A stretch of 38,604 bases of DNA, from contig CAJQGY010000051.1 of NCBI GenBank assembly GCA_905478015.1, forward strand, positions 1-38,604. Direction: 5' to 3'. The notes under the pieces were generated by a model, which did no database searches, was not told the DNA's origin, and saw nothing but the letters and a program-made list of their open reading frames with translations. Below are positions 1-7,445 of this stretch, piece after piece (position 1 is the stretch's first letter; each line of letters opens with the position of its first letter). This DNA comes from an uncultured SAR86 cluster bacterium. GTDB taxonomy: Bacteria; Pseudomonadota; Gammaproteobacteria; Magnimaribacterales; D2472. The translations under genes were made by a program, and so were the position numbers.

Positions 1-336
1 AATGGTTATGAGGTTGGAGGAGGATCTCTAAGGATTTATCAAGAAGAGATGCAAAAAGCAGTTTTTGATATTTTAAAAATATCCAACAAAGAAGCAAAAA
101 ATAAATTTGGCTTTCTTTTAAATGCTTTATCTTCGGGATGCCCACCTCATGGAGGTATTGCATTTGGGCTGGATAGGCTCGTAATGCTTATAACTAAAAC
201 TTCAAATATAAGAGATGTGATTGCATTTCCTAAAACACAGAGTGCAACATGCCTCCTTACAGAAGCCCCCAGTAAAGTTGACAATGCCCAATTAGATGAG
301 CTTAAAATAAGATCAACACAAATAGAAGAGGATTAA
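1..336 (+). CDS. aspS: Aspartyl-tRNA synthetase, C-terminal part (5' truncated by window)
   Basis: This is the last 111 codons of a class II aminoacyl-tRNA synthetase that charges tRNA-Asp (or tRNA-Asp/Asn) in the cytosol. The frame is open from base 1 and reads [13 protein letters not shown], followed by [13 protein letters not shown], which is class II motif 3 with its ATP-binding arginine. The ending [21 protein letters not shown] is typical of the bacterial AspS C-terminus. An internal ATG at 49 would cut into the conserved fold, so the gene clearly begins upstream of the window. Its stop codon is directly followed by the yebC start, and aspS next to yebC is a common gammaproteobacterial arrangement. 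Identification is firm; whether the enzyme is discriminating cannot be judged from this fragment. Confidence 0.95.
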
Positions 337-1074
337 ATGGCAGGACATTCTAAATGGGCAAATATAAAACATCGCAAAGCAAGACAAGACGCCTCTAGAG
401 CTAAAGTATGGACTAAGGTTATTAGAGAAATAACAGTTGCAGCTAAAGGCGGTCCAGATCCAGAAGACAATCCTAGATTGAGACTTGCGCTTGAAAAAGC
501 AAATCAATCAAACATGCCCAAAGACACTATAAAAAGAGCCATTCAAAAAGGTTCAGGCACTGGCGAGACAGGCAGTTTAGAAGAAATAGTATTTGAAGGT
601 TATGGTCCTGGAGGTGTAGCGATTCTTGTGGAGACAATGACAGATAATAGAAATAGAACAGTTTCAGATGTTAGGCATGCTTTTTCAAAATTTGGCGGTA
701 ATCTTGGTACAGATGGTTCAGTGGCTTATCTATTTAACAAGCTTGGCATCATCCATGTAGGCAAGGGAGTTGCTGAAGATGATTTGATGGATATTGCACT
801 AGATGCTGGTGCAGAAGATCTAATTGATGAGGGTGAATATTTTGAACTCATTACTCCTCATAATGATTTAAGTAATGTAAATGATGTTCTTAAATCAAAA
901 GATATTGAAATTTCAAATGCTGAAACAACACTTAGAGCAGATACCCTTATAGAGGTTGATCAAGAAATGGCTGAAAAAATATTAAAAATCATGGACTTTA
1001 TGGATGATCTTGATGATGTGCAAGAAGTGCACACCAATGCTCAATTTCCTGATAATTTTGAACCAGGAGAGTAA
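337..1074 (+). CDS. yebC: YebC/PmpR family protein (TACO1-like)
   Basis: A 245-residue member of the YebC/PmpR/TACO1 family. Family members act as transcriptional regulators or, according to more recent work, as ribosome-associated factors that relieve stalling at proline stretches. The signature start MAGHSKWANIKHRKARQDA is present, followed by GPDPEDNPRLRLALEKANQ and FEGYGPGGVAILVE, and the length is normal for the family. It starts immediately after the aspS stop with no spacer, so the two are probably cotranscribed. The family is certain; the exact role (DNA-binding versus translational) is not decided by sequence. Confidence 0.95.
   Translation: MAGHSKWANIKHRKARQDASRAKVWTKVIREITVAAKGGPDPEDNPRLRLALEKANQSNMPKDTIKRAIQKGSGTGETGSLEEIVFEGYGPGGVAILVETMTDNRNRTVSDVRHAFSKFGGNLGTDGSVAYLFNKLGIIHVGKGVAEDDLMDIALDAGAEDLIDEGEYFELITPHNDLSNVNDVLKSKDIEISNAETTLRADTLIEVDQEMAEKILKIMDFMDDLDDVQEVHTNAQFPDNFEPGE
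1065..1070 (+). promoter_or_regulatory. Ribosome binding site selecting a TTG start
   Basis: AGGAGA lies within the last codons of yebC, six bases before the TTG at 1077. It is the strongest Shine-Dalgarno match nearby and supports TTG as the start of the nuclease gene, which has no ATG near its conserved N-terminus. Confidence 0.6.
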
Positions 1075-1076
1075 TT

Positions 1077-1502
1077 TTGCCAGTTAATTCAAGAGCAAAA
1101 GGTGCAAATTTTGAAAGAGAAATAGGAAATTTGCTAGTCAAAGATCTTAATTTAAACAATCCAGTTAAAAGAATTTTAGAGCAAACCAGAACAAAAGAAC
1201 TGCCTGATCTAAGACTTGGAAGATGGTGTTTAGAATGCAAGAGATATGGTGATGGAGGGGAGCCACCTCAAGATTGGTGGGATCAGGTAATCAGAGCATC
1301 AGAGGGATATGATTTAATTCCAGCACTTATTTATAAGTTCAATAGAAGGCCTATAAAAGTAAGAATACTTGCATCAACAATCAATCCAAATATCCAAAAT
1401 GATCTAATAACTGTTGATTTGTTGTGGCCAGACTTTGTACAGATTTTATTAGAACTTTTTCAAAAAGATATAGAGCTGCATGAGCAAACATATCAAATCT
1501 AG
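1077..1502 (+). CDS. PD-(D/E)XK endonuclease, phage Holliday-junction-resolvase-like
   Basis: A 141-residue protein starting at TTG with the sequence MPVNSRAKGANFEREIGNLL. This N-terminus, the PDLR ... LECKRY core and the later PALIYKFNRRPIKVRI strand resemble small nucleases of phages and prophages annotated as Holliday junction resolvase-like PDDEXK enzymes. The visible candidate metal-site residues are E13, D44, E53 and K55, and a DWWDQ segment near residue 67 is also family-like. The gene lies between yebC and ybgC-tolQ, exactly where many gammaproteobacteria carry ruvC or ruvCAB, which is absent here. It overlaps ybgC by 23 bases. I infer that it may resolve recombination junctions in place of RuvC. 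Structure-specific or other nuclease activity is an alternative; the fold assignment is by motif only. Confidence 0.75.
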   Translation: MPVNSRAKGANFEREIGNLLVKDLNLNNPVKRILEQTRTKELPDLRLGRWCLECKRYGDGGEPPQDWWDQVIRASEGYDLIPALIYKFNRRPIKVRILASTINPNIQNDLITVDLLWPDFVQILLELFQKDIELHEQTYQI

Positions 1503-1890
1503 AGATCTATTTCTCAAGGTATATTGTGAAGATACTGACTTCCAAGGTTTTGTATATCATGCAAACTACCTAAAATTTTTTGAGAGATCTAGAACAGAAT
1601 TTTTGATTGACAATGGCATTTCACAGGAAAAGTTATTAAATCAAAGGCTGGTATTTGTAGTAAGAAAAATACAAATTAATTTCATTTCACCTGCAAAAAT
1701 TCAAGATGCTCTAACGATTTCCTCAACTGTGCATAAGAATTCGAATGCTAGATTAACTTTCTCACAAGTGGCTAAAGAAAATACATCAAATAAGATCCTA
1801 TGTTCAGCCGAGATTGAAGTTTGTTTAATAAATTTGGAAACAAATAAACCAAAACCTTTTAACAATGATTTATTATTACTTTTTAGCTAA
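1480..1890 (+). CDS. ybgC: Tol-Pal system-associated acyl-CoA thioesterase YbgC
   Basis: A 136-residue hotdog-fold thioesterase. The family signature is clear: YCEDTDFQGFVYHANYLKFFERSRTEFL (written here across residues 15-42), with the aspartates of the EDTD segment at the usual catalytic site. YbgC hydrolyses short- or long-chain acyl-CoA or acyl-ACP at the inner face of the cytoplasmic membrane and has been linked to phospholipid metabolism, although the gene is best known as the first gene of the tol-pal cluster. It precedes tolQ here as in E. coli. The start at 1480 lies inside the end of the nuclease gene, suggesting translational coupling. Confidence 0.93.
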   Translation: MSKHIKSRDLFLKVYCEDTDFQGFVYHANYLKFFERSRTEFLIDNGISQEKLLNQRLVFVVRKIQINFISPAKIQDALTISSTVHKNSNARLTFSQVAKENTSNKILCSAEIEVCLINLETNKPKPFNNDLLLLFS

Positions 1891-1899
1891 AAAATTATT

Positions 1900-2571
1900 A
1901 TGAACGAAATTTCTGTATTAAATTTATTCCTAGAAGCAGGCTTGGTTGTGAAATCAGTAATGTTTGTACTCTTATTAACCTCAGTGCTTTCCTGGATAGT
2001 TATAATTGAGCGCTATAATTTTTATAAAAAAATAAAGAAAATAAATTCTGAATTTTTATCAAGATTTTGGTCAGGAAAGGACTTGCACTCGCTGTATGAA
2101 GAGATTCCTGATAATAATATTAATTATGGATCTTTAAATGTTTTTAAAAGCGCATTTAACGAGTTCAATACTCTTAAATCAAGCAATCAAGTTACCGAAT
2201 TAGATCTAGAAGGTATTAATCGCTCAATGAGAGTTGCCATAGCATCAGATGAAGAGCAGATGAATGTAAATCTATCATTTCTTGCAAATGTAGGCTCTGT
2301 TAGTCCTTATATTGGATTATTTGGTACTGTTTGGGGGATTATGACCGCATTTCAGGGTTTATCAGACGCTACACAGGCAACTATTAACGCAGTTGCTCCT
2401 GGAATTTCTGAGGCTTTGGTAGCAACAGCAATGGGTTTATTTGCTGCAATACCTGCAGTTTTGGCATATAACAAATTTGCCTCTGAGCTTGAAAGCATCT
2501 CTCAATCAACAATCATATTTTCTGAAGAACTTGCTAGTATTTTTTATAAGCAAACTTTAAAAAATAAATGA
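1900..2571 (+). CDS. tolQ: Tol-Pal system protein TolQ
   Basis: A 223-residue inner-membrane protein of the MotA/ExbB/TolQ family. With TolR it forms the proton channel that energises the Tol-Pal machine during outer-membrane constriction. Three membrane spans are visible: near residues 14-36, 126-150 (FLANVGSVSPYIGLFGTVWGIMTAF) and 165-190 (GISEALVATAMGLFAAIPAVLAY). The latter two contain the conserved GLFGTVWG and EAL.ATA.GL segments. It begins 9 bases after ybgC and its stop overlaps the tolR start as ATGA, indicating coupled translation. Confidence 0.97.
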   Translation: MNEISVLNLFLEAGLVVKSVMFVLLLTSVLSWIVIIERYNFYKKIKKINSEFLSRFWSGKDLHSLYEEIPDNNINYGSLNVFKSAFNEFNTLKSSNQVTELDLEGINRSMRVAIASDEEQMNVNLSFLANVGSVSPYIGLFGTVWGIMTAFQGLSDATQATINAVAPGISEALVATAMGLFAAIPAVLAYNKFASELESISQSTIIFSEELASIFYKQTLKNK

Positions 2572-6176: not shown

Positions 6177-7445
6177 ATGCAGGATAAAATTAAACACTTC
6201 TTTTCACTCTTATCTGCTTTAAAAACGAATAAGACTTTTCTTTCAAGTTTCTTATTTTACCTTGTACTTTCTTCTTGGTATGTTCTAAGACCTTTAAGAA
6301 ATGAGCTTGCTGTGGAGAGCTATGGAGAAGGGATGCTCATACCTCTTCTAATCAGCACTACTTTAGTAATGATTCTAGTTAACCCTATTTATTCATGGGT
6401 TGCATCTAGAGCTAATTACATAAGGATTATCTTTTACACCTATTCTTTCTTTATTTTAAACTTACTAATTCTTTATTTATATTCATCAAATTTATCTGAA
6501 TTAATGACCTTTGAGAGGTTGTGGCTTGGAAGAATATTTTATGTGTGGAGCAATATATATTCTTTCTTTACAGTTTCAATTTTTTGGGTGCTAGTAATTA
6601 ATTTATTTAGAGACTCTTCTTCAAGAAAATACTATGGATTTATACTGGCAGGTGGATCAGTTGGTGCAATGCTTGGCTCTCAAACATCGAGCATGCTCTC
6701 CAATTCATTTACCGAGACCGGGATAGCACTATTTTTAATCGCAGCATCATTTTTCTTGATATTAGCACTAGCTCTTGCAGCTTATATTGTAAAAATATTT
6801 TCAGTTGAAGCTCTCTCGTCTAAAGTTGGAGGAGGCTCTATTGATAGTATTAAAAATATATTAATCAAAGACGATATAAGGAAAATAGCACTCTATTCTT
6901 GGTTTTTTACTTTTTTAATGACAGTGCAGTGGATAGCTGCAATACCTATTATTGAGAACTATTCTGAATTATCTCCAGAAAGAATAAGGTTATTTGCATT
7001 AATAGAGCAAATAGTTTCTCCACTCACCTTATTAGTTCAGTTAACTTTAACTTATTATGTGATTTCAAAGTTTGGAATCAAATTTATATTAGTAGTTTAT
7101 GGTATTTTGTTTATAGGTGTCTTCTCTCTTTATGGGTTTTTACCATCTGTGGCAGTCGTTGTTTTCTGCCAAACATTGCTTAGAGTATTTGAGTACGGTT
7201 TCAACAAGCCGGCAAGAGAGATCGCTTACAGCCAGCTTGAGAAGAAAGATAGATACAAAACCACAGTTTTTATAGATACGTTTATGACAAGGTTTGGTGA
7301 TCTCTCGGGAAGTATTTTTATGGGTATTGGTAAATCAATATTTCTTACCATTACTTATATGCCAATTGTTGCAATTCCTTTTGCAATTCTTCATACATTC
7401 CTGGGCTATAACATTACAAAGAAAAAGTTATTTAAAGACCTCTAG
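6177..7445 (+). CDS. MFS-type / NTP-NDP exchange-like membrane transporter
   Basis: A 422-residue polytopic membrane protein with about 12 predicted spans. The N-terminal FYLVLSSWYVLRPLRNELAVE, the later IFWVLVINLFRDSSSRKYYGFILAGGSVGAMLGS, and the C-terminal FEYGFNKPAREIAYSQLEKKDRYKTTVFIDTFMTRFGD match a family found in many proteobacteria and usually annotated as MFS transporter or NTP/NDP exchange transporter, related to the plastid and rickettsial ADP/ATP translocases. The substrate of the free-living bacterial members is not established. Nucleotide exchange should not be assumed. It starts 15 bases after the tRNA and overlaps the end of convergent bepA by 14 bases. Confidence 0.8.
   Translation: MQDKIKHFFSLLSALKTNKTFLSSFLFYLVLSSWYVLRPLRNELAVESYGEGMLIPLLISTTLVMILVNPIYSWVASRANYIRIIFYTYSFFILNLLILYLYSSNLSELMTFERLWLGRIFYVWSNIYSFFTVSIFWVLVINLFRDSSSRKYYGFILAGGSVGAMLGSQTSSMLSNSFTETGIALFLIAASFFLILALALAAYIVKIFSVEALSSKVGGGSIDSIKNILIKDDIRKIALYSWFFTFLMTVQWIAAIPIIENYSELSPERIRLFALIEQIVSPLTLLVQLTLTYYVISKFGIKFILVVYGILFIGVFSLYGFLPSVAVVVFCQTLLRVFEYGFNKPAREIAYSQLEKKDRYKTTVFIDTFMTRFGDLSGSIFMGIGKSIFLTITYMPIVAIPFAILHTFLGYNITKKKLFKDL

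Follow-up and report, generated by a model that had tools for sequence, protein, structure and literature searches.

A predicted Hjc-like Holliday junction resolvase of phage type occupies the ruvCAB slot in the SAR86 order

Known resolvases and the gene between yebC and ybgC

Earlier work placed RuvAB and RuvC/RecU in the near-universal core of recombination genes and saw little horizontal transfer of them (PMC1193525). Among phage enzymes, Hjc_15-6 of Thermus phage Tth15-6 (PDB 7bgs, also 7bnx) cuts Holliday junctions experimentally, and Glu10, Asp40, Glu53 and Lys55 have been proposed as its catalytic residues (PMC8805305). A different phage resolvase partially complemented the loss of RecU in Bacillus subtilis, which is a precedent for phage-to-host substitution (PMC3485210), and for one Hjc/UPF0102 protein that was expressed no nuclease activity could be detected (PMC10140301). 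The SAR86 bacteria (Magnimaribacterales) comprise four families and 22 genera with average genome sizes of about 1.05-1.66 Mb, and a cultured isolate exists (PMC11582366). No paper linking SAR86 with RuvC or the Holliday junction was found in the literature.

The order of genes in E. coli is aspS-nudB-yebC-ruvC-yebB-ruvA-ruvB, and yebC adjoins ruvC in many bacteria that possess ruvC. The stretch of DNA analysed here (the window) comprises 38,604 nucleotides of a contig from an uncultured SAR86 cluster bacterium, whose genome of 1.07 Mb is about 85% complete. It begins with the following genes:

1..336, forward strand: 3' part of aspS (aspartyl-tRNA synthetase), truncated by the window start; PF00152, E = 3.1e-23 on 49-333
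337..1074, forward strand: yebC (TACO1/YebC family); PF01709, E = 2.3e-56, and PF20772, E = 1.1e-33
1077..1502, forward strand: phage-type Hjc-like PD-(D/E)XK nuclease, a predicted Holliday junction resolvase; PF24608 and PHROG 244
1480..1890, forward strand: ybgC (thioesterase of the Tol-Pal operon); PF13279, E = 5.6e-15
1900..2571, forward strand: tolQ, assigned from its translation; right landmark of the locus
2568, 2965, 3615, 4908 and 5409 (starts), forward strand: tolR, tolA, tolB, pal and ybgF, downstream of tolQ

The left landmark of this conserved locus is aspS. The nuclease gene starts with TTG two bases past the yebC stop, encodes 141 amino acids and ends with a stop codon at 1500-1502, so that its 3' end overlaps the start of ybgC by 23 bases; the spacing from yebC to ybgC resembles that in a translationally coupled operon. 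Among the relatives that were read, TTG is the start codon within the window's family and ATG stands at the equivalent place in other families. Further downstream, positions 6177-7445 encode a membrane protein whose match to MFS_1 stays under the cut-off and whose sequence may resemble nucleotide transporters.

The earlier note on this DNA had described a 141-residue PD-(D/E)XK nuclease between yebC and ybgC with E13, D44, E53 and K55 as catalytic residues. The gene order and a match to Pfam PF24608, PDDEXK_15 (E = 6.5e-10, 39.6 bits against a cut-off of 27), confirm the first point, and the four residues are invariant both in 20 chromosomal relatives and in a 53-sequence alignment of the window protein with 52 viral relatives. 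The proposed likeness to phage Holliday-junction-resolvase-like enzymes is borne out by PF24608, by PHROG 244 ('RusA-like Holliday junction resolvase', E = 1.3e-12) and by a predicted fold of Hjc type. Of the families named for comparison, the PDDEXK and phage ones matched but the archaeal Hjc family PF01870 did not (at E <= 1). The sole Pfam match at E <= 1 was PF24608; the RusA, RecU and UPF0102 (YraN) families gave none, the RuvC profile (PF02075) matched neither the nuclease nor anything else in the window's genome, and NCBIfam returned no match for the nuclease. The identity as RusA, which the PHROG name carries, was rejected as annotation only, and the family is taken as Hjc-like PD-(D/E)XK.

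A sequence search of the PDB with the window protein gave no useful match, and the profile of its subfamily retrieved no chain. AlphaFold (AF2) models the window protein with confidence (pLDDT 89.9, pTM 0.85). When this model was compared with the PDB by Foldseek, each of the top 19 matches was a Holliday junction resolvase from the Hjc family (best match E 5.9e-4, probability 1.00), with moderate TM-scores of about 0.4-0.54 by query length. The nuclease of a second bacterial lineage, treated below, leads to the Hjc family in a structure search as well. The sequence of this second protein likewise matches Hjc enzymes of known structure (7bgs, E 1.3e-10; 1hh1, E 2e-8) with the catalytic residues in register, and the protein scores 19.9 bits against PF01870, just below the cut-off of 21.1. 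Profile comparison shows homology between the two nuclease families (99.7%, E 2.3e-25). As the profile of the window subfamily has no PDB match, its sequence link to Hjc passes via the family of the second lineage. Taken together, predicted fold, active site, family and position argue strongly that the nuclease would cut Holliday junctions.

RuvABC and the content of the ruv slot across the order

The window's genome is incomplete and an absence from it alone means little, so the search was extended to 151 genomes of the order, which span four families and 22 genera and have sizes of 0.7-1.8 Mb; 40 of them are at least 90% complete. The RuvC family (PF02075) had no match in any of the 151 genomes, including the 40 more complete ones, and the C-terminal domain of RuvB (RuvB_C, PF05491) likewise matched in none, with controls positive in both searches. 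The RuvA_N domain (PF01330, controls positive) passed the cut-off in a single genome, G118, which is 73% complete; there a true and intact RuvA lies on a short contig (L046) beside an efflux-pump fragment. This copy was rejected as a genuine gene of the order and is probably contamination, the genome having no RuvB_C or RuvC matches. Matches to RuvB_N (PF05496) occur in 151/151 genomes, and they were not accepted as RuvB: they reach about 31 bits at best, come without RuvB_C and fall in frames mostly of about 420 or 490-600 amino acids, which are taken as other AAA+ ATPases.

E. coli RuvA, RuvB, RuvC, RecG, YqgF and RadA were also combined into a single tblastn query. With it, RuvA, RuvB and RuvC were all found in both control genomes, and none of the three turned up in 10 genomes from the order, several of which are single contigs. 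In the wider sample of the class, RuvC is present in 190/202 genomes. A ruvC with ruvAB elsewhere in the genome would have refuted the reading of the earlier note, and none was found in the 151 genomes. That note had left loss or relocation of RuvAB side by side; loss is what the domain counts favour, the one RuvA_N match being a probable contaminant, while relocation falls away with no copy seen elsewhere. As far as these searches of genome sequence reach, RuvABC is absent from the entire order (SAR86).

The slot itself is filled. PF24608 is found in 137 of the 151 genomes and in all 22 genera, normally as a single copy, and in 38/40 of those at least 90% complete; the 14 genomes with no match are mostly incomplete, G046 and G054 being the two at least 90% complete. 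The nuclease directly follows yebC in 131 of the 132 genomes whose locus was read, the exception being a contig start, and because it recurs to this extent the arrangement is more than chance. In two control genomes the order is yebC-ruvC-ruvA-ruvB-tolQ-tolR with tolB also downstream (ybgC was detected in G367 only, not in G362), which agrees with the earlier statement that in many gammaproteobacteria yebC-ruvC-ruvA-ruvB or a similar order stands before the tol genes. Comparison of the loci of E. coli and these controls with that of the order indicates that the ruvCAB block was exchanged for one gene, and at the level of the genome the replacement of ruvC-ruvA-ruvB by the nuclease is secure.

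Between families, the nuclease shows nearly the same identity as yebC and a higher one than ybgC. In the closest nuclease pairs dN/dS is 0.03-0.09, a sign of purifying selection; for distant pairs, in which dS approaches saturation, the ratio cannot be relied on. By these measures the nuclease behaves as a housekeeping gene. It is hardly credible, then, that the protein is catalytically dead or dispensable and that recombination is brought to its end with no resolvase, by means such as RecG or a topoisomerase. The genomes are reduced and other marker genes have been lost from them (PMC11582366), but the four catalytic residues are invariant over deep divergence, the low dN/dS of close pairs speaks against decay, and RecG itself was not found in three genomes (see below).

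Three further observations concern single genomes or families. In family f4 (L053), ybgC is missing from the locus that was read and the order is yebC-nuclease-tolQ. In G026, a second PDDEXK_15 copy (L009), which shares 32% identity with the window protein, has surroundings that look like a phage replication or recombination cluster; it was rejected as a copy of the chromosomal gene, since it stands outside the yebC locus and clusters with viral copies. The 1.1 Mb genome G281 keeps ruvC after yebC and encodes elsewhere a weak PF24608 homologue of 111 amino acids (L055).

Phage relatives and a second lineage

The family to which both nucleases belong is otherwise found mainly in phages, and IMG/VR holds at least 553 window-type relatives. 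In marine Roseobacter phages a member of the family adjoins a PD-(D/E)XK nuclease, a single-stranded DNA-binding protein and a helicase. The nuclease of phage CRP-811 (L090) is of the type related to the window protein and that of CRP-831 (L091) is of the type of the second lineage; the two types stand at the same place in related phages, which suggests that phages exchange them too. A tree built from 97 sequences unites the order's chromosomal copies in one clade (support 100/100) among phage sequences. Nested in this clade are viral groups, of which one contig (L093, copy at L093:4001-4420) stands beside the window's family and the others (L094-L103) beside a group of family f3; their copies share 51-60% identity with the window protein. 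Two contigs, L093 and L097, carry tail, virion or endolysin genes, and yebC or tol genes were found in none of the viral loci examined. These nested contigs are probably SAR86 phages that took the host gene. The simplest reading of the tree is that the gene would have moved from phage to bacterium once in the order, and then back into phages at least twice.

A second case came from the class sample, where a RuvC-less genome (G185) encodes a PF24608 protein of 104 amino acids in the same slot. RuvC is found in 0/12 genomes of its gammaproteobacterial family, as against 8/8 in two sister families, which keep yebC-ruvC-ruvA-ruvB at the slot. The 104-residue nuclease follows yebC in all 9 genomes of the family with a yebC locus, and ybgC and tolQ come next in 8/9, the remaining stretch giving no further frame. 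With the E. coli queries, tblastn found none of RuvA, RuvB and RuvC in 6 genomes of this family and RecG in all 6. The named copies of this shorter nuclease belong to uncultured marine Gammaproteobacteria. Each nuclease family is placed among phage sequences in the tree, and the AU test rejects joining the two (delta lnL 77.9, p = 0.0001); the short alignments restrict the resolution of deep branches. The separate placement and the AU rejection indicate that the lineages took their genes from the phage pool separately, so that the swap most likely occurred at least twice. The yebC slot was also inspected in eight further genomes of the class sample that lack RuvC: five had no yebC match, two had yebC cut by or at a contig end, and G216 had an unrelated frame after yebC, so that these slots are uninformative on replacement.

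The proposal that a phage-derived resolvase replaced RuvC in a non-orthologous manner is thus supported by position, phage ancestry, Hjc-type fold and the loss of RuvABC, and it extends further than was proposed, to the order as a whole (151 genomes sampled) and to the second lineage. Nucleases are common in defence, and a phage origin would also suit an anti-phage or superinfection-exclusion nuclease that landed in the operon by chance, unrelated to the loss of RuvABC. Such a role is very improbable, however, for a protein that matches no PADLOC model, is normally present in single copy at a fixed housekeeping locus throughout the order, evolves between families about as slowly as yebC and was repeatedly swapped with ruvCAB.

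Proposed function and comparison with known systems

With considerable confidence, the nuclease is read as a vertically inherited Hjc-like resolvase that the ancestor of the order would have acquired from a phage and that replaced ruvC-ruvA-ruvB between yebC and ybgC-tolQ. RecA is apparently present: in 7/10 genomes of the order, the RadA query weakly cross-matched frames of about 350 amino acids (RadA matches being erratic, also in the control genomes). Four-way junctions must therefore form. In the proposed mechanism, the retained RecA would make joint molecules, a homodimer of the nuclease would recognise the four-way junction by its shape and make two symmetrical Mg2+-dependent cuts via E13, D44, E53 and K55, and ligase would seal the nicks. 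The enzyme would act without the RuvAB motor, the branches moving spontaneously or by RecG where it is kept. We infer dimerisation, junction cleavage, the role in vivo and the independence of a motor.

The nuclease might instead be a general structure-specific endonuclease for flaps, stalled forks and branched replication products, retained for fork repair, with Holliday junction resolution incidental or done by another enzyme such as YqgF. Selectivity is often lower among phage resolvases, which act on several kinds of branched DNA (PMC3864405), so that the natural substrate could indeed be wider. YqgF was found in each of the 10 genomes searched from the order, with a weak match in G012. In most bacteria, however, YqgF co-occurs with RuvC/RecU, and resolvase activity had not been shown for it (PMC1193525). 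The exact position of the ruvCAB block, repeated in the second lineage, argues for the role of RuvC, and a fork-repair function in place of it is unlikely.

RecG can move branches. The gene complement that the earlier note had listed for a genome search proved mixed in the 10 genomes: besides YqgF in every one and ruvA, ruvB and ruvC in none, RecG was found in seven. Three genomes of the window's family (G000, G002 and G006), which include the window's own incomplete genome, had no RecG match, only Mfd-sized proteins matching well. RecG does occur in another member of that family, G030, and in each of the six genomes sampled from other families. Without RuvAB and RecG, these three genomes would have no known branch-migration motor left, a statement that covers three genomes. 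It is a tentative possibility, somewhat short of even, that in these free-living marine bacteria RecA-dependent recombination is completed by a stand-alone phage-derived resolvase with no known branch-migration motor. If so, a phage-type junction cutter would suffice in place of the entire RuvABC-RecG layer of bacterial recombination.

In very abundant ocean bacteria, then, the whole RuvABC set is absent and a nuclease of a phage family stands in its exact place, a pattern repeated in a second lineage. This makes it testable whether one small phage resolvase can replace a resolvase-plus-motor machine. It also raises the questions why streamlined marine genomes favour the nuclease swap and whether phages with their own copy of the nuclease use or subvert host recombination.

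Compared with known systems, Hjc_15-6 has the archaeal Hjc fold and an E-D-ExK site like that of the window protein, and it matches the family of the second lineage by sequence. It differs in being phage-encoded, whereas the window protein is proposed as the sole chromosomal resolvase of a bacterial lineage, and in its motif (E-SD-EVK against E-PD-ECK), and the window subfamily has no direct sequence match to it. The archaeal Hjc enzymes (PF01870; PDB 2wcz, 1gef, 1hh1) share the predicted fold and the order of active-site residues; the window protein, in contrast, has no PF01870 match and a bacterial host, and its activity is predicted only. The phage proteins of PHROG 244 and PF24608 (CRP-811, CRP-831) belong to the same family and lie beside recombination genes, but they are phage genes, while the gene in the window is fixed in the chromosome as a housekeeping gene. 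E. coli RuvC, acting with RuvAB, shares the position after yebC and the proposed task but no homology. The RecU of Firmicutes is the precedent for non-orthologous replacement of RuvC (PMC1193525, PMC3403352); lineages with RecU keep RuvAB and rarely have recU at the ruv locus, whereas here RuvAB is lost and the gene sits in the ruv slot. Relative to the RecU case, what differs is that the RuvAB motor was also lost, that the exact ruv slot was taken, that the source was phage and that at least two events took place.
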